Origin: Eubacterium sp. 14-2 | Lineage (GTDB): Bacteria; Bacillota; Clostridia; Lachnospirales; Lachnospiraceae | Assembly: GCF_000403845.2 (NCBI RefSeq) | Contig: NZ_KE159568.1 | Span: forward strand, 372,001-436,000 | DNA: 64,000 nucleotides | Direction: 5' to 3' | In this document: positions 3,663 to 64,000 of the stretch, one piece after another | How the letters are laid out: the number at the start of each line of letters is the position of its first letter | Numbering within the stretch: position 1 is the first letter of the stretch | Made by a program: the position numbers and the translations under genes | The notes under the pieces: generated by a model | Seen by the model: the letters and a program-made list of their open reading frames with translations, nothing else | What the model was told of the DNA's origin: nothing | Databases searched by the model: none

Positions 3663-3755
3663 ATTCCTGTCCTTTCTGTCTCATGACTGTTTCCCGGCCT
3701 GTGTTCCGGCCATGTCTGCAGGAAAAACTTTCACTGCAAAGCGGCTCCCTTCCTT

Positions 3756-6508: not shown

Positions 6509-6549
6509 GTACCCTCCTTTTTTCAGATTTTCGTAAAATAATTTTCCCC

Positions 6550-13522: not shown

Positions 13523-13582
13523 GCGGGCGAAAACAAAGGGATAAATCCGCCCGCTGACCTGTTTTTTTATAAACTCAGGTCA
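13523..13582 (-). terminator. Possible terminator structure at the end of the cluster
   Basis: Two tandem hairpins overlap and follow the AsnB stop: TGACCTG/CAGGTCA (13582-13555) and GCGGGCG/CGCCCGC (13554-13523). The T tract normally expected is missing, so this is a weak call. Confidence 0.35.
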
Positions 13583-15417
13583 AATATATCGTAGAATGCA
13601 CTCACTGTCAGGACAATAATAAGATAATCCGTATCAAAGGGGAGGTTAAGCCTGAATCCTTCTGTCTGATATCTGCGCTTCAGCGCCTCCACATAATCCC
13701 AGTTAAATATCCCCTGTCCTTTTATGCTTTTTTCAGACAGAAGGGTTTCCACATATTCATCTTTACACTTCAGCAGCTCTGAAACTCCCGGCGCAACAAA
13801 GGCAAACTTCGTGCGGGATATGATTTCATCCGGCACAATTCCCCGCGCCATCTTTTTTACAATGTACTTTTCATTCAAGCTGCTGTCCAGTTTATACCTG
13901 GAAGGCATTCTGACTGCCAGATCCAACACATTGATATCCAGAAACGGATATCTGGCTTCTATTGCGTTTGCAAAGGTCATCCGATCTCCGTGGTCAGCCA
14001 GCAGATGTTCCGGCAGCCGCAGCTTATAATCAGCATAGCTGCGCTTTTGCTGCTCATCCAGATTTCTAATCACTCCTGGTTTCAGGACAGGCCGGCCCAC
14101 AGCGGTAAACTCCTTTAAGGACGCCCCGACATCTTTCGAATAAATCTGAGGCTTTATGTTTTCCAGCTCTGTCAGAGAACGTTCATAGAAGAAATCAGGA
14201 TCTCCGTACACCACATCATTTACCGCTTTTTCTTCGTCTGTTAATATCATCCCCCGTTCTTTCTTCCTGGCAGCGTCAAATTTGTATCCCACATAACCTG
14301 AAAAAAATTCATCTGCGCCTTCTCCGGTAAGCACAGCCTTTACACCTGTTTCATGAACCATTTCCGAAAGGGCCATTGACGCTGTATTATACGTTTCACG
14401 CAAAGGCGTTTCCCCATGGTATATTACCGGTTTAAAATACCGGGCCATATCCTGCTGCGTAAACAGTTTCTTATGATGCAGGGATTTTACATTCCTCTGA
14501 ACACAGCGCTGAAACCGCGACTCCGACACGCTTCTGTCCGCAAAATCTATGGAAAATGAATGGTACGGTGTTCTGGCACTTCGGTTTATCAGGCCTGCAA
14601 TCACAGAAGAATCCAGTCCGCCGCTGATATAAAATCCAATGGGCACCTGGGCATGAAGCCTGATCTTCACCGCCTGTTCTATCCTTTCCAGTAAAGATTC
14701 TGCGTAGTAATCTTCGCCCCGGTCCTCTGTTATTTCCGGGTAGCGCACGTCCCAGTATTCCTGCTGCCGGATGGATTTTGCGGTACAAAATTTCATAAAA
14801 TGACCATTTTCCAGGGTATAAATATCCTTAAAAAAAGTATTCGGCGCACGGCATCCGGGAAAAGTCAGCAGCTGATCCACCGCATGCATGTTAAGCCGCC
14901 CTGTTATCCCTGGATATTGCAGAATCGCCTTAATCTCCGAAGCAAAAATAAAGAAACCGTCATACACTGTATAAAAGAAAGGGGCTATTCCAACATGATC
15001 CCTGGCACAGAAGATACTCCTGTCTCTCCTGTCATATATCACAAAGGCAAACTGTCCGTTCAGCCGCTTCACTGCATCTGTGCCATATTCTTCATACAAA
15101 TGCAGAATCACTTCCACATCCACCTCTGTTCTGAATCGGTGCCCCCTGCCTTCAAGTTCTTTTCGCAGTTCCAAAAAATTAAATATTTCACCGTTGCAGA
15201 CGAGAACCAGATCTGAGGTTTCGTTGGTTATGGGCTGCATACCGCCTTCAGGGTCCAGAAAACTCAGCCGTACAAATCCCAGTCCCACACGGGAATCCAT
15301 ATATCTGTCCTGCCCGTCCGGGCCGCGATGAGCCACAGCCTGTATCATGTTGTCCATAATTTCCGGCCTGATACGATTTTCACCCTTCATATCAAATATA
15401 CCAGTTATACCGCACAT
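13567..15417 (-). CDS. asnB: AsnB-type glutamine-dependent amidotransferase
   Basis: A 616-residue class B asparagine synthetase homologue. The start is fixed by the catalytic Cys2 (MCGITGIF) with GGAGAGAAAAA upstream. The glutaminase domain (1-205) has AHRGPDGQ and CNGEIFN. The synthetase domain has the ATP-pyrophosphatase loop SGGLDSS at 265-271 and GEGADEFFSGY near 365. It lies 29 bases after the last NRPS gene and is the final gene of the cluster. Family members make Asn or turn carboxylates of natural products into amides. Because the assembly line has no thioesterase domain and needs a terminus, a tailoring or terminal amidation role is plausible; supply of Asn is the alternative. Confidence 0.9.
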   Translation of the reverse strand: MCGITGIFDMKGENRIRPEIMDNMIQAVAHRGPDGQDRYMDSRVGLGFVRLSFLDPEGGMQPITNETSDLVLVCNGEIFNFLELRKELEGRGHRFRTEVDVEVILHLYEEYGTDAVKRLNGQFAFVIYDRRDRSIFCARDHVGIAPFFYTVYDGFFIFASEIKAILQYPGITGRLNMHAVDQLLTFPGCRAPNTFFKDIYTLENGHFMKFCTAKSIRQQEYWDVRYPEITEDRGEDYYAESLLERIEQAVKIRLHAQVPIGFYISGGLDSSVIAGLINRSARTPYHSFSIDFADRSVSESRFQRCVQRNVKSLHHKKLFTQQDMARYFKPVIYHGETPLRETYNTASMALSEMVHETGVKAVLTGEGADEFFSGYVGYKFDAARKKERGMILTDEEKAVNDVVYGDPDFFYERSLTELENIKPQIYSKDVGASLKEFTAVGRPVLKPGVIRNLDEQQKRSYADYKLRLPEHLLADHGDRMTFANAIEARYPFLDINVLDLAVRMPSRYKLDSSLNEKYIVKKMARGIVPDEIISRTKFAFVAPGVSELLKCKDEYVETLLSEKSIKGQGIFNWDYVEALKRRYQTEGFRLNLPFDTDYLIIVLTVSAFYDIFDLSL

Positions 15418-15446
15418 TTTTTCTCTCCATAAATTCTGTATCCTGC

Positions 15447-18400
15447 TTAAAACATATCATCCAGATCCACGGTCAGATCCTCCTGTATGAAATCCGTCAT
15501 GCCAGGCAGAAGCTCTCCCAGCTTTCTGCTGTCTCCGGTTACAGCTTCCATTACAACAGAACGGAAGTTATTCAGCAGCACTTCTGCAGTCTGCACCGTA
15601 TATAAATCTTTGACGTACTCAAGGGTAAGACAGAGCTGGCCGCTTATAATTTCCGCCTCAAACAAGAGATCCTGATTGCTGGTTCTCACCCCGGTCTCAT
15701 ACCTCTTAAGTCCCTCCATTTTTTCTCCGGTCTCTGTCAGTCCCGTATTCTGCATGATAAAAGTTACATCAAACAGAGGATTTCTCCCCTGTTCCATTCT
15801 GCATTCCGACACCTTTACAATGTCCTCAAACCCGATTTCCTGACGCTCCAGGCAGTCCAGCACCATACTGCGGGACTTTTCCATATAACTATCCGTTTCC
15901 ATATCGTCTTCCACCTGATATCTGAGGGGCAGCGTATTGATAAACAGACCCATGGCATTCATAAAGGCTCCATGCTGTCTGCCCGATACGGGGGTTCCGA
16001 TCACAACATCCTGCTTTCCTGTCATTTTTGCCAGTGTCACCGCCAGCAGAGAACCAAGCAGCATAAAAAGGGTTACATTGTGCCGCACCGCATACTCTGT
16101 AAGAAGCGCATATTCTTCGTCATGAAAGAAAAATCCCACGGAACCGGCTTTATAACTTTTTTTCAGTCCTCTGGGGTAATCAGGCAGGATATACGCAGTA
16201 TCGTGAGGCGGAGCCATTAATTGCCGCCAGAACTTAAGTTTCTGTGCATACTCCTCTGACTTCATCCGTTCCTTCTGATAATATACATAATCTTTATACT
16301 GCAAAAGGTCACTGCTCTGGTATACGCCCATATAGCGGGCATATAATTCAGAAATAAACACCCGCATGGATATCCCGTCTGAAATAATATGATGGAAATC
16401 AACTGCAAGAAACGCCTCTTTTTCCGTATAAATCACACCGATTCTGAAAAGAAACAGCCTGTCCAGCTCATATTCCCCGGCATAATACCCTTCGATAACC
16501 GGATCCGGATTACGATTTCCCGCATCCAAGATATCTATATGGAATTCGGCCGTTTCATGCACATGCTGGACAATTCTGGAATCCTTTACATGAAAGGTTG
16601 TGCGCAGTATCTCATAACGGTCGATCATCCGGGCACACGCTTTTTCCAGACCTGCAATATCAGGCTTTTCCTTCATCTTTGCGCAGAAGGATATATGCCA
16701 GCCTTCCTCTCCCATGCTTGCCGCTGACATGAGATAAATTCTCTTCTGGGCGTCGGACACCATATAATGCTCCTTCTTTTCCACATGGGGTATGACTGTT
16801 TCATCCGCTTTTTCCCTGTGCTCCAGAACAGACGCCATCTGACGGACTGTGGGATACGTGAATATATCACGGACGGAAAAAGCTGCCCCTGAAAATTTGC
16901 TGACTTCCGCAGCCAGACCTGCAGCCAGCAGAGAATGCCCGCCGATTTCAAAAAAATTATCATCTATGCCGATTGCCCTGTCACTGTCCAGAATATCCTG
17001 CCATATTTTTATTAATCCAAGCTGCTTTTCATTTTCAGCGGAGGTTTTCCGGCCTCCTGCCCCGTCACCTGTGATATCCGGCAGCATGGATACATTCAGT
17101 TTCCCGCTTGTGGTCAGGGGAATAGTGTCAATCCGCATGAAAACATCCGGTACCATATACTCAGGGAGCTTTGATCCGACATGATGCTTCAATACGGATA
17201 TATCAATATTTTCGTCCGCAACATAGTAACCTGCCAGCACATCATTTCCGTAACTGTCTTTTCGTCCTGCGGCGGCCGCCTGCAAAACGCCGGGGCAGGA
17301 AGAAATGGTTACCGCAACCTCGTCACACTCTATCCGATGTCCCCTGATTTTTACCTGAAGGTCTTTCCTCCCGATAAATTCCAGCATCCCTTCCCGGTTC
17401 ATGCGGACTATGTCGCCGGTACGGTATATTTTTCCTGTTCCGAAAGGATTGTCGGGAAATTTCTCCGCAGTAAGTTCCGCCTGCCCCAGATAGCCGTACC
17501 CCACGCCCGCACCGGCAATGTACAGCTCTCCCGGAACATTCACAGGCAGACGCCTCATTTTCCCGTCAAGCACATATACCTGCTGATTGGCCAGAGGCCT
17601 CCCAATCAGCACATGTTCTCTGTTGGTCAGTTCGCATATTGTGGACCAGACTGTGGTTTCCGTGGGGCCGTAAACGTTAAAGATCCGCGCTTCGGTACTG
17701 CCTTTCAGTTCCGACAGCAGACTGTCTGAAACAGCCTCTCCTCCCGTCAGTACATATTTCACACTTTTCAGGGAATTGTTCCTGTTTTTACCCGGGAGCA
17801 GCATTTTTATGCCCGATGGGGTCATCTGAACCATATCAACGCTGTTTTCTCTGATGATACGTTCCAGAGCGGAAGGTTCCAGCCTTTCCTCCTCATCTGC
17901 CATTGCAATCGTCATGCCGCATTTTACTGAGAAATACAATTCAAGCCCGAATATATCAAAGGTATAGTCTGTTGTTGAAAGCATGGCCCTGCAGTTACTG
18001 TCCCGGAAAACATCCTCCATGGAACAGATAAAATTATAAATTGCCTTATGGGGAATTATCACTCCCTTTGGCTTTCCTGTTGTGCCCGATGTATAAAGTA
18101 TATAGGCCGGCAGATCAGACCGGGCTTTTGAAATCACAGGCCCAGGAACCTCCCGTTCCTCTGCGGCCTCCGTCCCCGGCGTTATGATTTGCACATGTTC
18201 CGCACCCTCTGCCCCCTCATCTGCTATCATAAAACGCATCCCGCTGTCAGCAATCATGGTATTCCGCCGTTCGGCCGGAAAAGAAAGCCCCAGGGGAACA
18301 TAGGCTCCCCCTGCCTTCATTACTGCAAAAAGCGCTGCCGGAAGCCTGACGGACCGTTTCATCATCACGCCTACCGGTTCTCCCTGTTTTACGCCAAGGG

Positions 18401-19910
18401 ACAGCAGCCGGCCGGCCAGTTTATCTGACAGATCATCCAGCTGTTGAAAGGATAACTGCTGGCCGGAACAGATTACGGCTGTTTTGTCTTTCTGTTCAGA
18501 AGCCGCTGTTTTTAACATGGTGACAATCGTTTCGTCTTCATTATAATCAGCTGCATTGTCATTTACAGCATCCAGCAGATGGTAATCCCTGTCACATGTA
18601 ATGTAAAGATCCTCCAGGAGACAGTCCCCTTCTGTTTCCAGACGGTACAGCATATCGTCAAGCTGTTCCAGAAAACATGCCGCATCCATTTCTGTATATG
18701 CTTTTTCGTTGAACCGAAATGAAAAGGCAATTTCTTCATCCGATGGAAAAATGCTGATATACATATTGCTGTCGGTCTGTTCATAATAATCTGTTTCCAG
18801 TACGGTAAAGGGCAAATCCCCGATATTGTTGATTATTTTTACAAACTGTTCTCCATACGGATAATTTTCAAAGGCAATGATACAGTCAAACAATTCTGCA
18901 GAAAATCCGCTCTGCAGCTCTGAAAGGGAAGCGTCGGCATTTTCCTCCAGGAAATTTATCCCCTCAGCTGTGCGTTTCATCATCTCTGAAAACAATTCTC
19001 CTTCTGCCGCACATGCCCTTAAGGGAAGGGTGTTGATTAACATGCCCGCCATCTGCTCCACACCGCTGACCGGCGCCTGCCTGCCTGATACCACGCTTCC
19101 GATTACAGCATCGGAAGTCTGATTATAAATATGCATTAATTTAAGAATCACAGCGGCAATACAGGAATAAAGGGTACAGCCGAATCCGGAAGCAAAGGCA
19201 CGGATTCCGGCGCAGGTTGCCCTTTTCAGCCTGCCGGTCAGTTCACCGCGATACTCCCCCTCCGACGCCCCCTCACAAAATCCCGGCAAATGTGCTGTTT
19301 CACTGAACCCTTCCAGATACCTGGCCAGCTCCCCGGTGGAAATCTCTCTGCAGCGCTGTTCGCACCAGCGTATGTATGCTCCAAACTGGGGAACCGGAGG
19401 CAGTACAACCGGTTCTGCAGCGGCATATCCTGCCATAAACTCTTTCACAAGGTTTCCAAAGCTCCAGCCGTCAAGGGCAATATGATGAAAACTCCACACC
19501 AGCATGCTTTTGTTTTCAGGCAGCTCTGCCAGGGACAGGCGAAGGGGTATATCTCTTTCCAGATCAAACCCTTTTTTTCTGTCCTGTTCCAGATAGTATG
19601 CGCATACCTGGCTTATGTTTTCCGCGCCTGTATCCTTCAGGTCAACTGTAATCAGTTTCCCCTGCCTGTGCCTGAGAACCACCTGCTGGGGGCATGACAC
19701 TCCCTCACCCACAAATATGGTGCGTAAAATATCATATCGGTCAATCAGTTCCTGATAACATGCCTCTAACTTCTGCTTCTTCGGCCTTCCTTCCACCAGT
19801 ATGGAAAATTGCTCAAAATACTGCGTTGAATTACGATTTCTCAGCCATCCCAGCAGCATCCCCTGCTGTACTGGTGTAAGCGTATATATTTTGGAAATTC
19901 TGTCACTCAT
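15447..19910 (-). CDS. NRPS: C-A(Gly-like)-PCP-C
   Basis: A 1487-residue synthetase starting at 19910 behind AAGGAGACAGGAAAAC. Domains: C (about 8-430, FHHIALDGW with HH at 142-143), A (about 455-945), PCP (about 960-1030, EIGGHSLLA) and a terminal C (about 1045-1475, FHHIISDG). Both C active sites are intact. The specificity residues aligned by eye to GrsA read D-I-L-Q-L-G-V-V-W, close to the Gly code DILQLGLIW. The first C domain has the DCL-like FHHIxLDGW form, fitting the E-type domain that ends the preceding protein. Unusually the protein ends in a C domain with no partner A-PCP downstream and no thioesterase. That C could release the chain onto a free amine, or dock to another protein. 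Confidence 0.93.
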   Translation of the reverse strand: MSDRISKIYTLTPVQQGMLLGWLRNRNSTQYFEQFSILVEGRPKKQKLEACYQELIDRYDILRTIFVGEGVSCPQQVVLRHRQGKLITVDLKDTGAENISQVCAYYLEQDRKKGFDLERDIPLRLSLAELPENKSMLVWSFHHIALDGWSFGNLVKEFMAGYAAAEPVVLPPVPQFGAYIRWCEQRCREISTGELARYLEGFSETAHLPGFCEGASEGEYRGELTGRLKRATCAGIRAFASGFGCTLYSCIAAVILKLMHIYNQTSDAVIGSVVSGRQAPVSGVEQMAGMLINTLPLRACAAEGELFSEMMKRTAEGINFLEENADASLSELQSGFSAELFDCIIAFENYPYGEQFVKIINNIGDLPFTVLETDYYEQTDSNMYISIFPSDEEIAFSFRFNEKAYTEMDAACFLEQLDDMLYRLETEGDCLLEDLYITCDRDYHLLDAVNDNAADYNEDETIVTMLKTAASEQKDKTAVICSGQQLSFQQLDDLSDKLAGRLLSLGVKQGEPVGVMMKRSVRLPAALFAVMKAGGAYVPLGLSFPAERRNTMIADSGMRFMIADEGAEGAEHVQIITPGTEAAEEREVPGPVISKARSDLPAYILYTSGTTGKPKGVIIPHKAIYNFICSMEDVFRDSNCRAMLSTTDYTFDIFGLELYFSVKCGMTIAMADEEERLEPSALERIIRENSVDMVQMTPSGIKMLLPGKNRNNSLKSVKYVLTGGEAVSDSLLSELKGSTEARIFNVYGPTETTVWSTICELTNREHVLIGRPLANQQVYVLDGKMRRLPVNVPGELYIAGAGVGYGYLGQAELTAEKFPDNPFGTGKIYRTGDIVRMNREGMLEFIGRKDLQVKIRGHRIECDEVAVTISSCPGVLQAAAAGRKDSYGNDVLAGYYVADENIDISVLKHHVGSKLPEYMVPDVFMRIDTIPLTTSGKLNVSMLPDITGDGAGGRKTSAENEKQLGLIKIWQDILDSDRAIGIDDNFFEIGGHSLLAAGLAAEVSKFSGAAFSVRDIFTYPTVRQMASVLEHREKADETVIPHVEKKEHYMVSDAQKRIYLMSAASMGEEGWHISFCAKMKEKPDIAGLEKACARMIDRYEILRTTFHVKDSRIVQHVHETAEFHIDILDAGNRNPDPVIEGYYAGEYELDRLFLFRIGVIYTEKEAFLAVDFHHIISDGISMRVFISELYARYMGVYQSSDLLQYKDYVYYQKERMKSEEYAQKLKFWRQLMAPPHDTAYILPDYPRGLKKSYKAGSVGFFFHDEEYALLTEYAVRHNVTLFMLLGSLLAVTLAKMTGKQDVVIGTPVSGRQHGAFMNAMGLFINTLPLRYQVEDDMETDSYMEKSRSMVLDCLERQEIGFEDIVKVSECRMEQGRNPLFDVTFIMQNTGLTETGEKMEGLKRYETGVRTSNQDLLFEAEIISGQLCLTLEYVKDLYTVQTAEVLLNNFRSVVMEAVTGDSRKLGELLPGMTDFIQEDLTVDLDDMF

Positions 19911-19956
19911 GTTTTCCTGTCTCCTTGTCTCAAACTTGCTTCTTATATCATCTGTA

Positions 19957-22900
19957 TCAGTCTGTTATTCTGCTTACTGCATTTTCCAGGTACTTCAGGT
20001 CATCCATACTCAGATAACGATTATTATAATCACCCGGTGTTTCCGTGACTGTTTTCTTTTCAACGCAGTGGTCTGTAATTTCCTTCAGGGATTCCTTCAG
20101 TATGCCCGCCAGTTTCCCGGCAGCCTCCGCACCTGCGGCTTTGCTGTCGCAGGTGATGTCCAGGATAAGATGTCCTGATTTCATCCCTGCGTTCACTTCC
20201 AGCACAAAGGGCATTTTCTCATTGGTATCATTCCAGAGTCCGCTCATCTCTTCGTCTGTGTCAAAGGCTCCTTTTTCTTCCTCCCCGTCAAAACTGCCCA
20301 TATAATTAAACAGTATATCTTCAGGAGCAGACAGGCCTTCTGCTGCCAGCCTGTCCCGCGCATACATATAACATGCGCCGTTCCAGGGAACCAGCAGAGA
20401 CTGGTCTTTTACCTGAATAATTACTTTTTCCATATCACAGCCTTCCGTATGAAATACCAGGGGATACTCTGCTGCCAGCCATCCCACAGACTGAGACAGA
20501 TCAAGGGAGGGAAGCCCGGAAAGCCTCATATCATGTTCACAGAAAACACAGATATTGTGGATTCCGTATATTTTATATACCCCCATTACCAGTGCGCACA
20601 ACAGCAAATGTTCCACGCTGGTTCCGTATGCCCTGCAGGCCCCGCCCAGAACTGCATCTGTAAGTTCCCGGTCTGCTGTCAGGCGTTCGGTAACTGCCTG
20701 CGCATACGTCCCCCGTTCTCTGCCGCCAAAGACAGACTGGCATCCTGCAAGATATTTTCTGTAATACCGGTAATGGTCCTGATGGCTGCCTTCTGCAAAA
20801 AGACGCTCCATCACCTGTGAATATGTTTTAAAGGAACCGGTCTCAACAATTGCTTCCGGTTTCCGGCCGCCGGCAAAGGATGTATACGCGCGGTAAATAT
20901 CCCCGGCCAGCTGACGGAAAGACACAGAATCAACCACCAGATGGCTGGCTGCCAGTATCAGTCTGTCATGGGTTCCGTCGTATGACAAAGTTCCTCCAAA
21001 ATTAATTCCGCTCTGAACAGACACCTGACGATTCAGCCATTCTGCCGCTTCCCAGGCTGCCATCTCACTTCTGCCGCATATCCAGTGTACCTCAGAGCCT
21101 TCTTCGTAATGCTGCAGTTCTCCGGTAAACACAAGCTGCAGAGAACTGTAGGATTCCGCCACAAACCCAACTGCCTGTTTCAGTATTTCTTCATCCAGTT
21201 TATATGTAAAAATCAGCGTCAGGTTCTGGTTCCAGCCGGAATGTTTCAAATCAAAGGCTGAAATATATTTTTTCTGCATGGGGGTGAGGGCAAATTCCCC
21301 TGTTCTGTCAGACTGGTCCACCCGTGAGACCGGCCGGGCGGTTCTTGCAATCTCCCCGATGGTACCGGCGGCATAAATACTCTGAACGTCTGTGGAATAC
21401 CCGAACTGCCTGAGTGTGGAGGCCAGCTGTATGGCTCTGATGGAGTCTCCTCCCAGGCCAAAAAAAGTATCATTCATATTGATTTCATTAAGGCCCAGGA
21501 GCCGGCTCATGGAAGCTGCCACCGCCAGTTCGGCCGGGCTTTCTGCCCTTCTGATTTCAGAGGCGGCCGGCGCCTGCTGCGGAACCGGCAAAGCCTTACG
21601 GTCAATCTTTCCGTTGTTATTGTGAGGCATTTCTTCCAGCCGCATCAGGACAGAGGGCAGCATACAGGAAGGCAGCCTGTCCTCCAGCCATTTCATGATT
21701 CTGTGATCCATTTCTCCTGTTTCACTGGTATAGTAACAGCAGATGTATCCGGAATCCCCGCTGCCGCAGACTGTTGCAGCAGCTTCCCGGACGCCATCGC
21801 AGCTCTCTGCCACCATGGCTATTTCATTCAGTTCAATTCGAAATCCCCTGAGCTTAATCTGATGGTCTTTCCGTCCATGAATACAGAGCGTACCGTCCTC
21901 CATAAAGTGGCCAAGATCCCCGGTGCGGTACATCCTGCCGTATTCCGGTCTGAAGGGATTTCTGCCAAAGGCTTTCCTGGTCTGTTCCGGGTCGTTGATG
22001 TAACCATGGCCCACACCCGGACCGGACACGACGATTTCCCCATGGACTCCCACCGGGCAAAGCTGGTCATCTTCATCCAGAATATAAATTGCAAGGTTCT
22101 GAATGGTTTTTCCCACAGGAACGCTGTTTCGCTCCAGCTTATCTTTTATCACATAGTGGGTGATATCATCGGAAGCCTCGGTAGGTCCGTACGCATTTAC
22201 CACAGGTATGTCCGGAAACAGGGTAAGCCAGCGGTTCACAAGGCCCACGCTTACCACATCACCGGTGACCAGAAGATATCTCAGCTTATGAAAATCTGCC
22301 GGGCGGCCGTTCATGGAATCCAGCACTGCCAGCAGATATGCCGGCACCACTTCGAGAATGCTTACCTTCTGCTCTGTCACTTTTCTGACAAACATGTCAG
22401 CATCCACAATATGTTCCTCATCAAATATTACTGCTTTTCCGCCCACCATAAGAGGGCAGAAAAACTGCCATATGGAAATATCAAAGCAGGGAGATGCGGT
22501 AACAGCCATAACATCCCTGTGAGATAACCCCAGATCATTTATTTTGGCGCTGATATGATTGGTCATTCCTCCGTGAGCAACCACCGCGCCTTTGGGCCGG
22601 CCGGTGGAGCCAGAGGTAAAGATAATATAAGCCGGCCGCTCCTTACTGTATTCGGCCACGGTCACCGTCCTGGCAGGATATGACAGATCAAGATAAATCA
22701 GCCTGTCACCTGTCACTTCAGCAAGTTCTTCTTCCGGACTGTCACTGCAGACTGCAATACATGACGCCTCTGACATTTCAAAAATGTTCCGGATGCGTTC
22801 CAGAGGATAGTCCACCCCTGCCGGAACGTATACGGCACCTGTTTTCCAGAGGGCAGTCACAGCTGCGATCAGCTCCGGTGATCTTTTGATGCGAAGAACA

Positions 22901-27330: not shown

Positions 27331-27357
27331 CGTTTATTCACCTTAATATACTTTTCT

Positions 27358-34871: not shown

Positions 34872-34883
34872 AGCTGTTCCTTC

Positions 34884-44606: not shown

Positions 44607-44637
44607 CTGTAATTTCCCCTTTATCTCCAAATACCTG

Positions 44638-49125: not shown

Positions 49126-49158
49126 TCCCATCCTCCATTTTCATCCGCCATCAGAAAC

Positions 49159-52590: not shown

Positions 52591-52616
52591 CTTTTGTTTC
52601 CTTTCCGTCTGAACTG

Positions 52617-53858: not shown

Positions 53859-53870
53859 GATAAGCCCTCC

Positions 53871-54584: not shown

Positions 54585-54590
54585 GTTTTC

Positions 54591-55565: not shown

Positions 55566-55602
55566 TGTTCCAATTCTCCTGATGGTTCCAAATTTCCTTT
55601 GT

Positions 55603-56595
55603 TCAGTTCATCCAGAATTCCGCAACTCTGGAAGCAAGCTCTTTCTTCTCTGTTTCAAAATTTTCCGCAACCCATTCATCGTTATATACCGTGCTGGTAT
55701 AACGTTCGCCGCTGTCGGCAAAAACCACGGCTACATTGGGTTTTTTCAGAAAAGTTTTTCCCTGAAAATATTTATGTACTGCCAGATACACAGACCCGGA
55801 GGAACCTCCGATCAGGGTTCCGTGTCTCTTTGTGTATGTTCTGCAGGCACATATGGTATCCAGCTCCCCTACCACCACAACGTCATCTATTCTTGCCTCA
55901 GACAATATCTCCGGCCTTTTGCTTGAGCCAATCCCCGGTATCTTTCTCTTATGGGGGCGTCCGCCGAACACAACGGAGCCTTCCACATCAACAGCCACCA
56001 CCGCCGCATTGGGATACCGTTCCTTGACTCTTTGTGAAACACCTGTTATGGTTCCGCCTGAACTGACTCCCAGAAAAACATAATCCACTGCAAGATCATC
56101 GCATATTTCACTGCCGAGAGATTCATAATACGCCTCCGCCACAAGGGGATTTCCATACTGGCAGGTCCAGTAGTAGCTGCTGTTGTTTTCAATCAATGAC
56201 CGGACCAGACCGATTCTCGTCAGAAGATACCCTCCCCCTTCATCCCGCTCAGTGACTTTTATCACCTTTGAGGCCTGCGAAGTAATCAGATACTCATTGA
56301 CTGCCAGAATATCAGGATCTATGACAATCTCACATTTAAGATTCATTTTTCTGCAGTAGCTGGATAAAGAAATGCCGAAATTACCGGAGGACGATTCTAT
56401 GATGGTGGTATTGGGGTTAATAATTCCCCGCTCCAGCCCTTTGTTCAGTACATGAAACGAAGCTCTGTCCTTCACGCTGCCCGTGGGATTGAAATTCTCA
56501 CATTTCTGAAACAGTGATATCTGTTCCAGTTTCGGTTCCCGAAGCAGTATAAGGGGTGTGTTCCCCACCGCATTAAAAGGTTCTGTTACAATCAA
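55603..56595 (-). CDS. sbnA: SbnA-like PLP enzyme for L-2,3-diaminopropionate synthesis
   Basis: A 330-residue cysteine-synthase-fold enzyme. It starts at a TTG (56595) seven bases after GGAGG. PLP-binding Lys42 lies in NPTGSVKDRAS; the phosphate and substrate loops are SSSGNFGIS (about 68-76) and GVSSGGTITG (about 176-185), with GGSSGS near 267. In staphyloferrin B synthesis SbnA joins O-phospho-L-serine and L-glutamate to give the SbnB substrate. Length and the adjacent SbnB-like gene support this over ordinary cysteine synthase, which would also lack a reason to be in an NRPS operon. Confidence 0.9.
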   Translation of the reverse strand: MIVTEPFNAVGNTPLILLREPKLEQISLFQKCENFNPTGSVKDRASFHVLNKGLERGIINPNTTIIESSSGNFGISLSSYCRKMNLKCEIVIDPDILAVNEYLITSQASKVIKVTERDEGGGYLLTRIGLVRSLIENNSSYYWTCQYGNPLVAEAYYESLGSEICDDLAVDYVFLGVSSGGTITGVSQRVKERYPNAAVVAVDVEGSVVFGGRPHKRKIPGIGSSKRPEILSEARIDDVVVVGELDTICACRTYTKRHGTLIGGSSGSVYLAVHKYFQGKTFLKKPNVAVVFADSGERYTSTVYNDEWVAENFETEKKELASRVAEFWMN

Positions 56596-56631
56596 TTTTT
56601 CCCTCCTTCTCCCCTGTGCCAGAAATCATTT

Positions 56632-59118
56632 TTACAGCTGTTTCAGCAGGTTTGTGAAGGCCAGTACACAGTCATGCAGTATCTCCCTGGCTGTATTTTC
56701 TGAAACAGCAGCTCCATGATTCAGTGAAATCTCCACATCTTCACAGACATTTTCCACTTTAAACATCAGATCCGGTACAACAGCATCTGAGCATTCTCCT
56801 TCTGTCTCCATACATCCAATCAGAAGATTTCTTTCCTCTGCAGACACTGCCTGTTTCAGGGACTCAGCATCCGCAGCCGGAAAATCCGATGCAGCGGCCT
56901 CCATCAGCTTCTGAGTGCTGCTTAAATCTTCCTCGTCAATCTTCATTTCCTTTATTTCTCCGTCCGGGCCCCACAGGTAAACAGAAAACGTACTGATTTC
57001 CATATAACGCACAGCTGAAGCTGCCACGGCTGCACGCAGTGCAGACCGGACCCTTTCCTCTGAAAGGTTTTCTCCCGGGATTTTCAGGGCCGTTTTCTCA
57101 CTGACCGTCACTCTTTCCGTACCATCCGCCCCGGTTCTGTTCCTCTCTTCCTTCCCGGAGACAGAATTTTTATCAAGATATGCGGCCAGAGATCTTATGG
57201 TTGGATGGGAATACAAATCTGAAACCACAATGTCTTTCCCCCAGCGCTCACAGATTTTTTCATGCAGCGCCACCACCTTCAGGGAGTCTGCCCCAAGCCG
57301 GGAAAAATTCTCATCAATATCTATCTCCTGCATGTCCAGTGTCTGCCTGCACAGATCTCTCAGCGCACATTCCGTATCGCTTTCCGCCTCTGGGATTTCC
57401 TGCACTTCATGGCTGCTTTTCTCTGTCAGCTTTTCAAGCTCTGCACAGACTTCTGAATATACCCCGGATGTGTACTGGCTTACATACTTAAAGCGCTGGA
57501 GTTTTCCGCTCATTGTAATATATCTGTCTGTGGTTGGAATAACATGCTCCGTATATAACCCAAAACAGTCATAGATGCATCTGGAAATCAGCCTGGCTGT
57601 TTCGGCAAACTGCTCCAGCGGACGGTCAGACAACACAAAAATCACAATACTGTCACTTTTATCAGCTTTGTCACTGACTCCGCAGGCTACTACCTGCCCT
57701 GTAAGGTGAGGAAATTCTCTTTCCATGCATCTTTCTATGTCGTGGGAATAATAATTGCGTCCATTTGAGAAAATAATGTCCTTGATTCTCCCGGCCACAT
57801 AAAGATTCCCTTCCTTTATAAAACCGATATCTCCTGTTTTATACCATCCGCCGGAATCTAAAACATCAAGGTTTCCATTACACCCGTCGTAATATCCTTC
57901 CGTAATGTTTTTCCCTTTTATCATAATTTCCCCGGCGTAACCATCTGCCAGTTCTCTGCCGCTGCGGTCTCCGATTTTTATGCTGCAGTGCTTCACTGCC
58001 TGACCTTCCGAAATGACTCTGACCGCCTTTGGGGCATCCGGGGCAACAAATTTCACCTGGTCTTCCCATCCCATGGAATCCGCATCAACAGTAAGATAAC
58101 TGTAACCTTCCTCCGGATCCGGAAAAGCCACCGCCAGCACAGCCTCTGCCAGTCCGTACACCGGATAAACAACCTGTCTTTTCAGGCCGAAGGATTTCAT
58201 CACACTGCAGAATTTTTCCACCATATCAACGGAGATTGGTTCTGCCCCGTTAAAGACCAGGCGCAAAGAGGACAAATCTGTTCCGGCTGCCTGTTCCGGG
58301 GATTTTGCCAGCGCCTTAAGAATCAGGCCATAGCCGAAATTTGGCATTCCGGTGATGGTATACTTATATTCTGAGATCAGCTTTAAATAAACGATGGGAT
58401 CACTGACAAAAGCAGCCGGAGGAATCAGACAGTGGGCAAGTCCGTAATAAGTGGGAGCCAGATGAAAGCCCACCATCCCCATATCGTGGGTCAGCGGAAG
58501 CCATGAAATGCCCGAATCGTTATGGTCAATCCGGGCATTGCTGATAATTCCTTCCAGATTGGCGATAATCTGCCCATGCGTCAGTCGTATTCCTTTGGGA
58601 TCAAAGGTGGAACCGGAAGAAAACTGCAGATATGCAATATCCTCAGGAGAAACTTCTTCCGGGTCAGCCGGCTCTGCCTCCGCTTTTAATTCTTCACAGT
58701 TCACAAACCTTTTTGAAATATCCTCCGCCAGTTCCTGCTCTCCCAGCTCTGATACATATCTGACCAGCCTGTCCAGATACACTTCTGTGGTGATAATCTT
58801 AGGGCTTCTCAGTTTGTGCCATATTTTATATATGCGGTAATACTCGGACTCACTGGCTGCCACAGGCACCGGCACAGCCACAATGCCTCCAAGGATACAG
58901 GCCCAGAATGCACAGACAAAACTGCAGTTATCGGGCATCTGGAGAATAACCTCGTCCCCCTTTTCCACTCCCGCAGCATAAAGCTCCTTCAACTGGCGTC
59001 CTGCTCTGTCATACAGTTCATCGTATTTCATTTCCGGACAGTCTCCTGCCTGTTCCACAAATCGAATTCCTCTTCCGCGCCTTCCGGCATTTTTCATTAC
59101 ATCAACTAATGTGTGCAT
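56632..59118 (-). CDS. Fatty-acyl-AMP ligase fused to ACP (lipid loading)
   Basis: An 828-residue loading protein. Residues 1-560 are a FAAL-type adenylation domain: phosphate loop QFSSGSTFDPKGI (165-177), WLPLTHDMGMVG (206-217), YGLAEA, TGD (428-430) and a C-terminal GKLQR with Lys539. An ACP follows (585-650, LGADSLKVV, Ser612). The last ~165 residues have no complete domain; the final 45 resemble the end of a condensation domain. FAALs activate fatty acids as acyl-adenylates and pass them to a carrier protein, so the product probably starts with a lipid chain. A ribosome site (GTAAGGGGGAAAGACA) supports the start. Chain length cannot be read from sequence. Confidence 0.92.
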   Translation of the reverse strand: MHTLVDVMKNAGRRGRGIRFVEQAGDCPEMKYDELYDRAGRQLKELYAAGVEKGDEVILQMPDNCSFVCAFWACILGGIVAVPVPVAASESEYYRIYKIWHKLRSPKIITTEVYLDRLVRYVSELGEQELAEDISKRFVNCEELKAEAEPADPEEVSPEDIAYLQFSSGSTFDPKGIRLTHGQIIANLEGIISNARIDHNDSGISWLPLTHDMGMVGFHLAPTYYGLAHCLIPPAAFVSDPIVYLKLISEYKYTITGMPNFGYGLILKALAKSPEQAAGTDLSSLRLVFNGAEPISVDMVEKFCSVMKSFGLKRQVVYPVYGLAEAVLAVAFPDPEEGYSYLTVDADSMGWEDQVKFVAPDAPKAVRVISEGQAVKHCSIKIGDRSGRELADGYAGEIMIKGKNITEGYYDGCNGNLDVLDSGGWYKTGDIGFIKEGNLYVAGRIKDIIFSNGRNYYSHDIERCMEREFPHLTGQVVACGVSDKADKSDSIVIFVLSDRPLEQFAETARLISRCIYDCFGLYTEHVIPTTDRYITMSGKLQRFKYVSQYTSGVYSEVCAELEKLTEKSSHEVQEIPEAESDTECALRDLCRQTLDMQEIDIDENFSRLGADSLKVVALHEKICERWGKDIVVSDLYSHPTIRSLAAYLDKNSVSGKEERNRTGADGTERVTVSEKTALKIPGENLSEERVRSALRAAVAASAVRYMEISTFSVYLWGPDGEIKEMKIDEEDLSSTQKLMEAAASDFPAADAESLKQAVSAEERNLLIGCMETEGECSDAVVPDLMFKVENVCEDVEISLNHGAAVSENTAREILHDCVLAFTNLLKQL

Positions 59119-59164
59119 TGTCTTTCCCCCTTACCTGAATACATATTTCACATTGTTCTTCGTT

Positions 59165-59857
59165 TCATGATTCCCCAAAGGCTCCCGGCTGAATCACACC
59201 GTCTTTTATATTGATTACTTTGGTACCGTATCCGGCATATTCTGCAGAATGAGTCACCTGAACCACCGTCTTTTCATATTTCTGGCTGACTTCCTTTAAA
59301 AGGCCCATTACATCCGTTCCAGATTTGCTGTCAAGATTTCCCACAGGCTCGTCTGCAAAAATAATTTCCGGATCCATAATAAGGGCCCGTGCAATTGCCA
59401 CTCGCTGCTGCTGCCCTCCTGAGAGCTCACGGGGCGTAAATCTGCGCTTCTCTTCAAGTCCAACAGACTCTAACAGCCCTGCCAGGCGCTCGGTATAATC
59501 ACCGGGCCTGCCATGATCCAGCAGTACCGGCAGCATGATATTATCTTCCACGTTCAGGTTGGGAACCAGATTGTAAAACTGAAAAATAAATCCCACATCC
59601 CTGCGGTGAAACCGGCTTACCTGCCGGTCGCTCATACCGGAAATATCAATACCGTCTATATAAATCTTCCCGGAAGAAGGGCGGTCCAGCGCTCCCAGAA
59701 GGTAGAGCAGGGTACTTTTCCCTGACCCCGACTGTCCCATAATGGATACAAACTCGCCTTTCTGAATTTCAAGATCTATGCCGCGCAATACCTCAACCTC
59801 ACTTTTTCCGGTTTTAAAATTTTTTCTTACTGATTCTGCTACTATAATTCCGCTCAT
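59165..59857 (-). CDS. ABC transporter ATPase, LolD/MacB type
   Basis: A 230-residue ATP-binding subunit with Walker [10 protein letters not shown] (41-49), Q-loop in [10 protein letters not shown], signature [10 protein letters not shown] (145-154), Walker B IIFADE (165-170) and switch His in VTHS (201-204). The QQQ signature and PVGNLDS D-loop are typical of the MacB/LolD branch that drives FtsX-type permeases, and such a permease is encoded 17 bases upstream. In Gram-positives these pairs usually expel or detoxify antimicrobial peptides at the membrane, so self-protection against the cluster product is a fair inference. Confidence 0.95.
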
Positions 59858-59874
59858 ATACCTACATCCTTCTT

Positions 59875-62385
59875 TTATTCATATTTGATTGATTCTATAA
59901 TTTTCATCCCTGACATCTTTATCACCGAACCGGCAGAGGCAAATACGGTGATAAATACCCCGCACAGTATACAGAGCAGTATCTTTCCCGGCGCCAGCTC
60001 CATGGTGAGCCGCAGACCAAGATTTTCCATGATCATGGGCGCCACATACAGAAGGCATATTCCCCCGCATACGCCAGGAAGGGAGCCCATCAGGCCTGTA
60101 AACATGGCTTCCAGAAGGGCTGTGCCGGCAAGCTGCGCCCGGCTCATACCTATGGAACGCTGTACGGCAAAGATCCATTTCTTTTCCATAAAACTTATGA
60201 TGACATTGTTTATCATTCCGGTAACTGCTATCACCAGCACGATCAGGCTGAACAGATCCATAATGGATACTATCTGTCTGTTTGACGCAAGGGACGACTC
60301 CCGGATTTCTTCCAGTGTTCTGACCTGAACCTCCTTACCTGCGGAAACAGCCGATATCCTGTCTTTCATGACAGGAACCTGATTTTCACCTGTATTTTCT
60401 GTCCGGATTAACAATGTGGAATAATTATCATAGTCCATCTGTTCTTTCAGACGGGAACCGGAAACCAGCGCCGCGCTTTCCAGAGTATCGTAAAAACCTG
60501 CCACTTTGTACTCCACATCCCCGTCTCCAAGGGCAAGGGTCAGCTTGTCCCCTGTTTCAAGGTCCATTGCTATCTTAAGGGTAGAGGAAATGAGAATATG
60601 ATTGCCCTGCTTCAGTTTGTTGAGTACCGCCTGTCTGTCTCCCTCATAATGGAGTTCGTAAAAATCCGTATAATCTCCTTCTTCAATTCCATTGAGAACC
60701 GGAATGGTGGTGTTGTACCCTTTGATTTTCACGTTATAGGCCAGATACAGAGAAGTCACCTGTTCCACTCCCTCCGTTCGCTCAATCTCATCCCTGTATT
60801 CACTGTCCAGATCATCGCCCTGTACCTCAATCTGGTATTTGCTGTCAGCAAAAAAATCAGATATTGAAGTGATAAGACTGCTTCCAAAAACGTTTATTAA
60901 CAGGAAAACCGTCATACTTATGGTCAGCAGCCGGACATTATTTATGGTGCAGCTGTTCTCATTCAGATTCTTCAGTGCAATTTCCCCCTCATGTCTGAAA
61001 GCAAAACGAACGAATGGATGAAATGCCAGGCACAGGACTTTCACAATATCATGAACCAGCAGAAGTATCAGGATAATAACAACCACACATGCAAAGGTGC
61101 CGTAATACAGCATCCGGTTCTCCGGCACCATCAGGACTCCGGCAATAACAAGAATCAGAAGTCCAAGTTTTGCCAGAAACAAAGGCCATATGAATTTCAC
61201 TGTTTTGCCATCGTCTTTTTTGCTTTTGATAAGAGCGGAAATGGAATATCGGTTGGATGACAGCACCGGAATCACCGTGCTGACCAGCGCAATCACGATG
61301 GAAAATACAAAGCTCACTGCCAGAAAGACCCAGGAAAATTCCGCATCTGCAACCATTCCTGCCGTGCGCATCCACTCCGGGGAAGAGTAATATACCATGA
61401 CCTGAAGCAGCCCCACCCCTGCGGCGCAGCCAGCCAGGCCCCCCGTAACGGCACATGCTGCAGCCTCCAGCAGCAGTACGGAAACTGTCTGCAGTTTTGA
61501 CGCGCCTGTGCTTCGGAACACGCCGATAATGGGCATACGCTCCAGAACAATTACTTTGAATGATGAATAAATCAGAAAGATACTGATAAAGAATACTGCA
61601 ATTGACATCAGATAAAAGGAAACTGTGATCCTGTCCGTGTATGCTTTGGAAGCGCTTTCACTTAAAAGCTCCGACACGTTCTGCTTTGGCATAATATCAC
61701 TCAGCCGCGCAATTTCCTCTGATACAGACTGCCCTTCATGGAGGGCTATCAAAATACTGTTTACTTTATCTTCTGTTCCGTAAATACGATTCATCCGCTC
61801 TGCGGATACAATTGCCGGTATCCAGGCTCCCGTTTCCGTAAACATACCGTCAGAATACGCAATACCTGCAATGTCAAATTTCTCCTCTTTGCCGTTTATC
61901 TGAATTGTCAGCTGTTCGCCAATGTCAAAACCATAACGGTCAGCCGTCACCCTGCCGATAATAATCTGATTTTCTTCCAGATTATCTTCCGTCCCTGTAC
62001 CTTTTTCCATAAGCACCCGGTTAATTTGGTCAAGCTCAGAAACCTGGTTGTATCCGTGGAGTTTTGTGAGGAAATGTTCCCTGCCCATGGTCATATAGCC
62101 ATTTGCCACAAAGCACTCTGCAGTCCCTTCGTATTCCTCCTCCACCTCTTGCAGACTGTGAGAAGAGAACACGCTGCTTTCTGCTGTATTTCCCCCTTCC
62201 ACCACAATATCCGCCGAACCAAAATCTTTTCTTACCACATTCATATACATTTTTTCCAGATTTCCGGACAGGGACTGTGTACTGAAGAATATGGCGGAAG
62301 ACATGGCTACCGCCAGAACAATAAGCAGCGTTCTTCCTTTTTTCTCCCACATATTTTTTAATACATATTTTAAAATAATTTTCAT
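59875..62385 (-). CDS. FtsX-like ABC permease with two FtsX domains
   Basis: An 836-residue permease. A first membrane helix lies near residues 15-37. A ~220-residue extracellular domain (MacB-PCD-like) leads into a first group of three helices with the FtsX signature (IFLIYSSFKVIVLERMPIIG and FRSTGAS near 285-310). A central helix pair is followed by a second extracellular domain and a C-terminal three-helix group with QRSIGMSRAQLAG. This duplicated plan is standard for Gram-positive MacB-like permeases of about 800 residues. The ATG overlaps the stop of the preceding gene (ATGA), which ties it to the cluster. With the ATPase downstream it forms an exporter or resistance pump; the substrate is inferred to be the cluster product. 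Confidence 0.92.
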   Translation of the reverse strand: MKIILKYVLKNMWEKKGRTLLIVLAVAMSSAIFFSTQSLSGNLEKMYMNVVRKDFGSADIVVEGGNTAESSVFSSHSLQEVEEEYEGTAECFVANGYMTMGREHFLTKLHGYNQVSELDQINRVLMEKGTGTEDNLEENQIIIGRVTADRYGFDIGEQLTIQINGKEEKFDIAGIAYSDGMFTETGAWIPAIVSAERMNRIYGTEDKVNSILIALHEGQSVSEEIARLSDIMPKQNVSELLSESASKAYTDRITVSFYLMSIAVFFISIFLIYSSFKVIVLERMPIIGVFRSTGASKLQTVSVLLLEAAACAVTGGLAGCAAGVGLLQVMVYYSSPEWMRTAGMVADAEFSWVFLAVSFVFSIVIALVSTVIPVLSSNRYSISALIKSKKDDGKTVKFIWPLFLAKLGLLILVIAGVLMVPENRMLYYGTFACVVVIILILLLVHDIVKVLCLAFHPFVRFAFRHEGEIALKNLNENSCTINNVRLLTISMTVFLLINVFGSSLITSISDFFADSKYQIEVQGDDLDSEYRDEIERTEGVEQVTSLYLAYNVKIKGYNTTIPVLNGIEEGDYTDFYELHYEGDRQAVLNKLKQGNHILISSTLKIAMDLETGDKLTLALGDGDVEYKVAGFYDTLESAALVSGSRLKEQMDYDNYSTLLIRTENTGENQVPVMKDRISAVSAGKEVQVRTLEEIRESSLASNRQIVSIMDLFSLIVLVIAVTGMINNVIISFMEKKWIFAVQRSIGMSRAQLAGTALLEAMFTGLMGSLPGVCGGICLLYVAPMIMENLGLRLTMELAPGKILLCILCGVFITVFASAGSVIKMSGMKIIESIKYE

Positions 62386-64000
62386 CTTTTTTCCCCCGAC
62401 TCATTACCCGATGTGGAACATATGTTTTCCGCACACTGCTTTGGATTGTCAATGTGCACCGGAGAAGTAATTATAAAGGTTATGGTATCCGTTCCAGGGC
62501 GCACCACAAAATTTATCAGCTTCATCTGGCCTGCTTCCCGGAATCCGTCAGACTCATACCGTTCTTCACGCATATCTGCCGCATAATGCTGATAATTGTA
62601 AACAATGGCTATGCTGCGCAGATATTCCATCAGTTTCATTCTGGATGAAACGCTGTTTTGTCCGGCCCCTCCATAGCTTTCCAGAACATTGATGCCATTG
62701 CTTTCATAATCTTTTAAATACTGTGAATAGCGTTCGTATTCTTCTGCTCCATCTCCGGAAGCAATAAAAGGTATATAATCTATGAATTCACCAATGGAAT
62801 CATAACAGCTGCAGCTGCCGGTGCGCCGACCGTCACTTATGGTAACAAAAGGCACATCCCACAGTTCAAAATGCTTTCTCATAATTGCCAGAAAGACCTG
62901 AAAAGCCATCCGGGCCATCCGTTCATCCGCTGTAATCCCGGTATGTTCTCGGAGCAAAGGTTTCATATCAACTGTGAATTTCCATACCATGTTTTCCCTG
63001 CCTCTGACCATCCGTTTCAGTTTCCTGCTCCTTAAGGTAAACTCACTGATCTGTTCGCTCAGCTCCTGATGAGCCCCGGCCAGCTTTTGCACATCATCCG
63101 CATATGCAAAACAGGTATATGCTTTTTTGCAGATAACCTCCCCATTCCTTCTGTACTTGTCATAAAAATCCCTTATTTCATCCTCAAAAATTCTGCGGCT
63201 TAATCCGTCAAAGATCATATGATTTGCGGAAAAACAGAGGATGTGCGACGCACAGTTAAACCGTATCAGAGCCACACGCCACTGCAGCCTGCCGCCTGTT
63301 CTGTACTTTGCATGGTAAAACTCAGGGATAATAATTTCATCCATTATCTTATCCTGGCAGGTTTCCTCATACCCGGAAAGGTCAAGCAGGGGGATTTCAA
63401 TATCGGGCACGCCTGAATATTCTCTCCAGTACCCACCCTCCCACAGAATGCACCGCAGCAGAGGCTCCGACTCAATCACCGCTTTCATGGCCCCGTTCAG
63501 CGCTTTCCGGTCCGGCAGTCCATGAAATCCGAGCAATGTCCCGTTATTTTCCGGAATATACTTTCTCACATACTGGGCTGCGGTAAGCGCCCGTTCCGCT
63601 GTCTCTTCTGCAGAAGTTATCCTTTCGCCCATACGCCTGTTCTCTGCTGTCAGACGCTTAACTTCTCTGCGTATTTCATCGGCCGCATACTCTGTTTTTA
63701 AATTCAGAAAAGACGCTGTTTCTTCGCCGTTACCGTCAATTTCGTCCGGAAGGACCACCGCCTCTTCATTCAACGGCCTGATATAGTGCGGGTGCAGGGG
63801 ACTTTCAAAATTTTCCCTTATCATGTCCAGCAGCCCGTCATCCGGTTCTTCCTCCGTAAACATGACATTTATGAAGCCATTCCCCTTATGGACTCTGACA
63901 TATCGTGCATCCTGCCCGGTATGCTCAATTACCATATCTTCAACATCCTGCATGTCATTCTGGCTCATCGACGCTCTAAAGGTTTCAATCAGCCCGGCCA
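62382..64000 (-). CDS. Partial NRPS-like protein: possible A-domain tail plus C-like domain
   Basis: The frame is open to the window edge. The first ATG inside (63968) has no ribosome site, so the true start is probably beyond 64000. The first ~90 visible residues resemble the C-terminal subdomain of an adenylation domain (VEDMVIEHTG, then HPHYIRPLNEE), but with NGE where the catalytic NGK Lys is expected. A coiled-coil-like linker follows (about residues 100-140 from 63968). A condensation-type domain comes next, with NHMIFDG in place of HHxxxDG, keeping the catalytic second His and Asp. It lacks a carrier domain and ends four bases into the permease gene. It may be a freestanding condensation enzyme, for example for attaching or releasing a group; this is inference. 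Confidence 0.7.
   Translation of the reverse strand, partial: AGLIETFRASMSQNDMQDVEDMVIEHTGQDARYVRVHKGNGFINVMFTEEEPDDGLLDMIRENFESPLHPHYIRPLNEEAVVLPDEIDGNGEETASFLNLKTEYAADEIRREVKRLTAENRRMGERITSAEETAERALTAAQYVRKYIPENNGTLLGFHGLPDRKALNGAMKAVIESEPLLRCILWEGGYWREYSGVPDIEIPLLDLSGYEETCQDKIMDEIIIPEFYHAKYRTGGRLQWRVALIRFNCASHILCFSANHMIFDGLSRRIFEDEIRDFYDKYRRNGEVICKKAYTCFAYADDVQKLAGAHQELSEQISEFTLRSRKLKRMVRGRENMVWKFTVDMKPLLREHTGITADERMARMAFQVFLAIMRKHFELWDVPFVTISDGRRTGSCSCYDSIGEFIDYIPFIASGDGAEEYERYSQYLKDYESNGINVLESYGGAGQNSVSSRMKLMEYLRSIAIVYNYQHYAADMREERYESDGFREAGQMKLINFVVRPGTDTITFIITSPVHIDNPKQCAENICSTSGNESGEKR

Follow-up and report, generated by a model that had tools for sequence, protein, structure and literature searches.

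Among assembly lines that combine polyketide synthase (PKS) and nonribosomal peptide synthetase (NRPS) modules, those of the iturin family begin with a head protein of the arrangement FAAL-ACP-KS-ACP-aminotransferase (FAAL, fatty acyl-AMP ligase; ACP, acyl carrier protein; KS, ketosynthase). One iturin-type product, bacillomycin D, is a cyclic heptapeptide made with adenylation (A) domains other than those described below and without genes for diaminopropionate (Dap). The N-acyl-D-Asn prodrug lines of the colibactin and zwittermicin type have an initial Asn-activating A domain with an epimerization (E) domain, together with a cleaving peptidase. Trans-acyltransferase (trans-AT) lines in gut anaerobes were reported in 2021 from Ruminococcus, Blautia producta, Anaerocolumna, and a Lachnospiraceae metagenome-assembled genome (PMC7930024, accessible portion). 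Here we describe a stretch of 64,000 nucleotides (the window) from the 3.99-Mb genome of Eubacterium sp. 14-2 (contig NZ_KE159568.1; G000:C2:372001-436000), most of which is occupied by a single operon that we interpret as a trans-AT PKS/NRPS line making and exporting a lipopeptide. We put the probability of this class assignment at about 0.85. A first-pass annotation had proposed the same class, and domain scans, active-site alignment, a KS tree, and A-domain codes all agree with it.

Extent and gene content of the operon

A total of 18 minus-strand genes, from an AccD-AccA fusion to an AsnB-like amidotransferase, follow one another at intergenic distances of -116 to +46 bp and span ~54.5 kb (13567-68039). 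The first-pass annotation had described at least 50 kb in one direction; the operon in fact runs ~4 kb past the window edge, to ~68039 in window coordinates, within an adjoining stretch (L003, whose position x is window 61000+x). The order of transcription is AccD-AccA, phosphopantetheinyl transferase (PPTase), NRPS0, an ATP-binding cassette (ABC) exporter pair, FAAL-ACP-tail, SbnA, SbnB, type II thioesterase (TEII), acyltransferase (AT), PKS1, PKS2, HYB3, NRPS4, major facilitator superfamily (MFS) exporter, HYB5, NRPS6, and AsnB. Every gene named in the first-pass annotation was recovered; missing from it were a sixth A domain (in NRPS0, 62382-65741) and, past the edge, the PPTase and AccD-AccA genes.

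The left end had also been placed correctly: two sister genomes (G805 and G806) resemble the window at the DNA level as far as 13491, a position 76 bp beyond the AsnB stop codon. Beyond AsnB, 233 bp are free of genes before the next gene, which encodes a PurF-like protein (11927-13333). At the other end, an Xre-type regulator (L003:7060-7434) lies on the same strand, 20 bp upstream of AccD-AccA. Rfam and tRNA scans returned no match, and the DNA composition of the cluster did not contrast clearly with that of neighboring genes.

The PurF-like protein was ruled out as an additional cluster amidotransferase: it occurs over its full length at 67 to 96% identity in 18 of 28 congeners, none of the 28 carries the cluster, and the 233-bp gap sets it apart from AsnB. 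One further congener (G802) has it at 70% over residues 1 to 364, for a total of 19/28. It is 34% identical to, and distinct from, the other PurF homologue of the genome.

PKS modules and trans-AT character

Four proteins carry KS modules, assigned from Pfam matches: PKS1 (49159..52629; KS1-KR-ACP, where KR is ketoreductase), PKS2 (44638..49131; KS2-DH-KR-ACP, where DH is dehydratase), HYB3 (34884..44606; KS3-DH-KR-ACP-C1-A1-PCP-E1-C2, where C is condensation and PCP is peptidyl carrier protein), and HYB5 (19957..27330; KS4-DH*-ACP-C4-A4-PCP-E4, where DH* is degenerate). For HYB3, an ATG start at 44606 is more likely than the TTG at 44780 of the open reading frame (ORF) list. The first-pass annotation held that these four modules lack an AT, and none was found inside them (no Acyl_transf match in the Pfam scan of PKS1, PKS2, HYB3, or HYB5). 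The single AT of the operon is the discrete malonyl-type protein that had been predicted (52617..53858), with 413 aa, GHSLG and GAFH motifs, an Acyl_transf match, and a match to TIGR00128 (fabD) above cut-off. In alignments, the KS active sites (Cys, HGTGT, and NIGH) are present in 4/4 domains, the KR Tyr-Asn pair in 3/3, and the carrier Ser in 11/11. The DH domains of PKS2 and HYB3 keep their His and Asp, and that of HYB5 is without the catalytic region. From these sequence features, the discrete AT is predicted to charge the ACPs with malonyl in trans.

For the KS tree, 76 domains were labeled by whether their protein carries a following AT (14 cis, 50 AT-less, and 12 undecided). The 73 rows left after dropping three copies of window KS, among which some near-identical rows remain, were analyzed by a quick method with SH-aLRT support only. 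All four window KS were placed inside a 41-row set (SH-aLRT, 97), in which the other rows are 31 AT-less and 6 undecided KS; the 14 cis-AT rows all lie outside it. Members of this set include bacillomycin D BamA (L133), plasmid pIVK83 (L128), and AT-less KS from Clostridia. Weighing against a simple reading of the tree, 13 of the 44 nonwindow AT-less rows fell on the cis-AT side (a Bacillus velezensis type I PKS, L127; a Streptomyces plasmid, L132; and genomes G717 and G278), so the window KS belong with an iturin-like/clostridial AT-less group and not with AT-less KS in general. The highest identity of a window KS to any outside KS was 50%, and KS1 shares 46% identity with KS2.

Predicted lipid loading, Dap supply, and export

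The lipid loader foreseen by the first-pass annotation is a FAAL-ACP protein (56632..59118; Pfam and NCBIfam), so that FAAL and ACP are both present as in lipopeptide lines with a FAAL starter; from its place in the gene order, it may feed PKS1. It ends in a tail of ~170 aa that had no homologue among the ORFs compared, apart from its own gene, and the best match to the whole protein in a 397-genome sample of the family was 33%.

Dap synthesis is suggested by an SbnA-like pyridoxal phosphate-dependent enzyme (55603..56595) and an SbnB-like dehydrogenase (54591..55565). Their top NCBIfam matches are indeed the SbnA and SbnB families, in line with what had been proposed; both scores, however, lie below the equivalog cut-offs (TIGR03945, 347.1 against 349.95 bits; TIGR03944, 288.9 against 326.9 bits), which counts against the assignment. 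Two exporters had been listed and were found, an ABC ATPase (59165..59857; PF00005) paired with an FtsX/MacB-type permease (59875..62385; PF02687 and PF12704), and the MFS protein (27358..28605; PF07690). The remaining accessory genes encode the TEII (53871..54584; PF00975) and, by domain scan, the PPTase (L003:4626-5399) and AccD-AccA (L003:5417-7039).

NRPS modules and predicted product

Besides the NRPS parts of HYB3 and HYB5, the line comprises NRPS4 (28605..34871; A2-PCP-C3-A3-PCP-X4, with A2 at 33342..34871 and X4 at ~28608-29975), NRPS6 (15447..19910; C5-A5-PCP-C6), and NRPS0 (62382..65741, or L003:1382-4741; A0-PCP0-X0), of which the window holds the end of PCP0 and X0 (62382..64000). 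Five A domains are complete in the window, as had been reported, and the sixth, A0, crosses its edge. Their codes, taken at nine positions from alignment columns, are DPRHLALLA (A0), DVWHFSFID (A1), DPRHFALLA (A2), DVESVGSIA (A3), DIWELTADD (A4), and DILQLGVVW (A5), such that A0 and A2 share the rare code DPRH(F/L)ALLA. We take A1 to be specific for Ser, A3 for a basic residue (Lys or Orn), A4 for a diamino acid, and A5 for Gly; A4 was so read with the Dap genes present in the operon, and a literature search for its code found no paper. In a sequence search of solved structures with A2, 77 sequences reached an E value of 1e-20 or better, and the best 60 of the 77 were generic NRPS or other adenylation domains.

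Domains C1 to C6 all have the HHxxxDG motif, and E1 reads HHLICDG. E domains were told from C domains by their motifs and by the match between E1 and E4, rather than by a curated E model. E4 was closest to E1 in pairwise domain comparison, but reads SHLVVDS in place of HHxxxDG, which weighs against it as an E domain. C2 and C5, both of which follow E domains, are reciprocal best matches (E, 9e-46), a pairing that fits D-accepting C domains. X0 (NHMIFDG) and X4 (HHAFYDL) are divergent, paralogous C-like domains (21% over 370 residues; E about 4e-6), recognized by comparison with each other and with the C profile; a sequence search of solved structures with X4 gave nothing, even at an E limit of 1. 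The NRPS proteins yielded no type I thioesterase match, which makes X0 a candidate for release.

The product, its lipid length and function included, is predicted rather than observed. The FAAL would place a fatty acid on its own ACP, and the lone AT would load malonyl units on the four AT-less modules, with AccD-AccA probably helping malonyl supply. KS1 with its KR would leave a beta-hydroxyl, and KS2 and KS3 with DH-KR would add two conjugated double bonds, to give R-CHOH-CH2-CH=CH-CH=CH-CO-. D-Ser (A1 and E1), an acidic residue (A2), and Lys or Orn (A3) would follow, then a malonyl unit that KS4 with its dead DH would leave unreduced (beta-keto), then D-Dap (A4 and E4, with Dap from SbnA/SbnB), and Gly (A5). 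The trailing C6 of NRPS6 would probably join a second acidic residue carried on NRPS0 (A0), and X0 would be the likely releasing domain. The building-block order given in the first-pass annotation is sustained by the domains and A codes, though it had left out the A0 residue and the AsnB step.

NRPS0 most likely acts last, because the C domain at the end of NRPS6 is intact and NRPS4 is the sole other protein that starts with an A domain. The gene order C6/AsnB also resembles the order C/AsnB/A(DPRH) in a Pseudobacteroides cluster (see below). Alternatively, NRPS0 could be a starter or side activity and C6 could release the chain by a free amine or cyclization, an option that we consider somewhat improbable but well worth weighing: NRPS0 is encoded upstream of the FAAL gene, so that collinearity fails for it, and X0 is divergent, yet C6 is an ordinary HHxxxDG domain that needs an acceptor, an A-first start is confined to NRPS0 and NRPS4, and a C/A(DPRH) junction recurs both at HYB3/NRPS4 and in Pseudobacteroides.

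AsnB and DxRH adenylation domains

The last operon gene encodes an AsnB-like glutamine-dependent amidotransferase of 616 aa (13567..15417; Pfam Asn_synthase and GATase_7; TIGR01536 above cut-off), 29 bp from NRPS6; a PADLOC scan of it gave no match. A scan of GTDB with an A0/A2 alignment yielded 52 loci with matches 24 to 42% identical, in which 156 A domains were read (those aligned to A2 over >300 residues, with shorter fragments left out). Arg and His at positions 239 and 278 (DxRH) were found in 50 of the 156. An AsnB homologue (>150 bits; 38 to 54% identical to the window AsnB) lay within 1.1 kb 5' on the same strand of 21/50 DxRH A domains and of 0/106 others. At 300 bp, the counts were 8/50 and 0/106. 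When only the 22 AsnB-containing loci are considered, the 1.1-kb counts become 21 of 25 DxRH A domains and 0 of 55 others. Because each locus was selected for such an A domain, the comparison is controlled solely by the remaining A domains within these loci. Such pairs occur in Bacteroidota, Actinomycetota, and Clostridia.

Among A domains with Arg at position 239, those of McyE (Glu), McyB (methylaspartate), and Lys2 and ACV synthetase (aminoadipate) all activate the distal carboxyl. Taken with the AsnB pairing, this suggests that A2 and A0 adenylate Glu, Asp, or aminoadipate at the side-chain carboxyl, that the alpha-carboxyl of the side-chain-linked residue stays free, and that AsnB converts it into an amide. 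We hold this interpretation tentatively, a little short of even odds. That AsnB and D[PAV]RH A domains form a widespread, so far unrecognized "isopeptide amide" cassette, with amidation on or off the line and with two such residues here, is a rather unlikely generalization. No such idea was found in titles and opening abstracts of the papers listed in searches on aminoadipate codes, aminomalonate, isoasparagine/isoglutamine, and asparagine synthetase.

Several points tell against the amidation proposal. The AsnB/DxRH pairs are not independent (12 of the 21 are from Streptomycetaceae, and L057/L061 and L058/L059 resemble near copies), so the independent cases are fewer than the count; for 29/50 DxRH A domains, no AsnB lies within 1.1 kb; and the window AsnB adjoins NRPS6, not A2 or A0. 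The zeamine paper, in the main text as available (PMC3547906), contains neither "asparagine synth" nor "amidotransferase", though the code DPRHLALLAK is identical.

AsnB might instead serve only to provide Asn or Gln for normal incorporation, with A2 and A0 activating the alpha-carboxyl and no iso-linkage formed, a doubtful but real contender. It would likewise account for AsnB homologues accompanying DxRH A domains, and the distal-carboxyl preference of the Arg239 domains goes against it. The code DPRHVSLLAK, 80% identical to DPRHLALLAK, is given for an Asn-activating domain in the available part of PMC12283262, which favors Asn, whereas the usual Asn-type codes are quite unlike those of A2 and A0 (DLTKIGEVG, read in the Pseudobacteroides cluster; DATKVGEVGK in zeamine, PMC3547906, accessible text). 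DPRHLALLAK itself is termed alpha-aminoadipic-acid specific in the comparative analysis of PMC12283262 and is tabulated as 2-aminoadipic acid, a prediction, for zeamine Zmn16 in PMC3547906 (available portions of both papers).

In 12 Streptomyces/Kitasatospora loci (L064, L066, L075, L077, and L081-L088), AsnB lies 0.7 to 1.0 kb upstream of a DARHLALMT A domain; among the 10 of these with a KS row, 8 are cis-AT and 2 undecided.

Integrity of the line and origin of its AT

The operon is apparently intact, judged from its reading frames. A decaying or silent cluster, to which the degenerate DH of HYB5 and the lack in X4 of the DG of HHxxxDG would be signs, is quite improbable given 18 open frames free of internal stops over 54 kb and complete KS, KR, and carrier sites. 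A cis-AT PKS that recently lost its AT domains and relies on housekeeping FabD is very improbable: although the operon AT matches the FabD family model, a FabD-like gene exists separately on contig C1 (38% identical), the operon AT is longer, with near full-length homologues in open frames of ~410 to 440 aa elsewhere in the class (best, 43% identical; 391 class genomes), and the window KS cluster with AT-less KS of other genomes.

Distribution and genomic setting

None of the 28 congeners yielded a PKS1 ortholog; G803 carries an unlike PKS, 39% identical to PKS1, and the remaining matches were FabF-sized. The rarity of such clusters in the family, put forward in the first-pass annotation, was borne out: KS matches at E up to 1e-80 occur in 8 of 397 family genomes including its own, that is, in 7 of 396 others (best outside identity, 48%), and no orthologous cluster was found in the 396-genome family sample or in two GTDB r220 scans that required exact short peptide patterns. 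With PKS1 as the lone GTDB query, three stretches fitted the pattern and none was a relative. Two family genomes are PKS rich for the family, with 35 (G345) and 26 (G054) KS matches.

The cluster is missing from both sister genomes, in which window DNA is found up to 13491 in blocks at 87 to 90% identity, save for one 60-bp block of G806 at 85%, and diverges after that point. In the Eubacterium genome, similarity to the G805 flank picks up again at C2:459956 (121 bp, 79%) and then, over a longer stretch, at 514639 (89%); the cluster therefore lies within ~74.5 kb that G805 replaces by ~4 kb. On these alignments, the cluster sits in a variable region.

Three tandem large serine recombinases (L004:7107-12247; G000:C2:460107-465247) lie at one margin of a block (C2:460077-514638), probably a 54-kb integrative element beside the variable region of the cluster; the block interrupts a gene that is whole in G805. 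A second FtsX/MacB and ABC ATPase pair (L004:16119-19174) lies ~28 kb beyond the upstream end of the cluster. At window positions 1943 to 7311 are 2-hydroxyacyl-CoA dehydratase-type genes (two HGD-D, one BcrAD/BadFG activator, and a CobQ/MinD-type ATPase), adjoined by a weak CdhC match.

The cluster is thus a large orphan in the genomes searched, of an enzyme class already known; the new points are the AsnB/DxRH association and two DxRH A domains in one line. The predicted components (dienoyl lipid, D-Ser, one or two acidic residues, a basic residue, a beta-keto unit, D-Dap, and Gly) provide concrete targets for mass spectrometry. Should the AsnB/DxRH pair denote amidated isopeptide residues, product predictions would need revision for the clusters that carry it in Bacteroidota, Streptomycetaceae, and Clostridia.

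Comparison with known systems

Domain scans of the 18 genes found no aminotransferase domain, as an iturin-family head would have, and no peptidase except for a weak S33-type match of the TEII. The lack of a peptidase, together with a Ser-type first A domain after the lipid, sets the line apart from N-acyl-D-Asn prodrug lines.

The hybrid cluster of Pseudobacteroides cellulosolvens ATCC 35603 (L049, L141, and L142) shares a discrete AT, a TEII-like match, an AT-less KS-KR-ACP-C protein, and, in one direction, AsnB (54%), A(DPRHLAMLA), SbnA (54%), and SbnB (47%), in the order KS-KR-ACP-C/AsnB/A(DPRHLAMLA)/SbnA/SbnB. It differs in having one KS match in the 81 kb examined against four here, a first A domain of Asn type (DLTKIGEVG) followed by E, and a glycosyltransferase inside; among the matches listed, none was labeled FAAL, and a stand-alone AMP-binding protein is present. 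In its DPRH A-domain protein (L049:9992-14140), the A core is separated from the PCP by a PP-loop domain (SGGKDST, Cys pairs, and a QueC match). The C-terminal 215 aa of L049:9-1568 form a C-like half domain that recurs at ORF ends beside AT/KS genes (L026-L030, L034, and L120) and is possibly a docking domain at NRPS-to-PKS joints.

The cluster of pIVK83 from Staphylococcus epidermidis (L128), presumably that of epifadin, likewise combines a discrete AT with AT-less KS in a hybrid line, and two of its KS fall in an unresolved five-row group with window KS3 and KS4 (support, 92). Unlike the window, its NRPS gene comes first and the PKS later, with no separate Dap or AsnB gene among 8 annotated features. 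Zeamine Zmn16 of Serratia plymuthica has a first A code, DPRHLALLAK, equal to that of A0 at the nine positions read, but the zeamine line uses a polyunsaturated fatty acid-type synthase and a KS-AT-KR-ACP module, and its aminoadipate is only predicted (PMC3547906, accessible text). The bacillomycin D/iturin-type system (BamD and BamA; L133) has one KS in the stretch compared against four here, and shares with our locus a discrete malonyl AT serving a lipid-primed PKS/NRPS line and a KS, that of BamA, in the same AT-less set.

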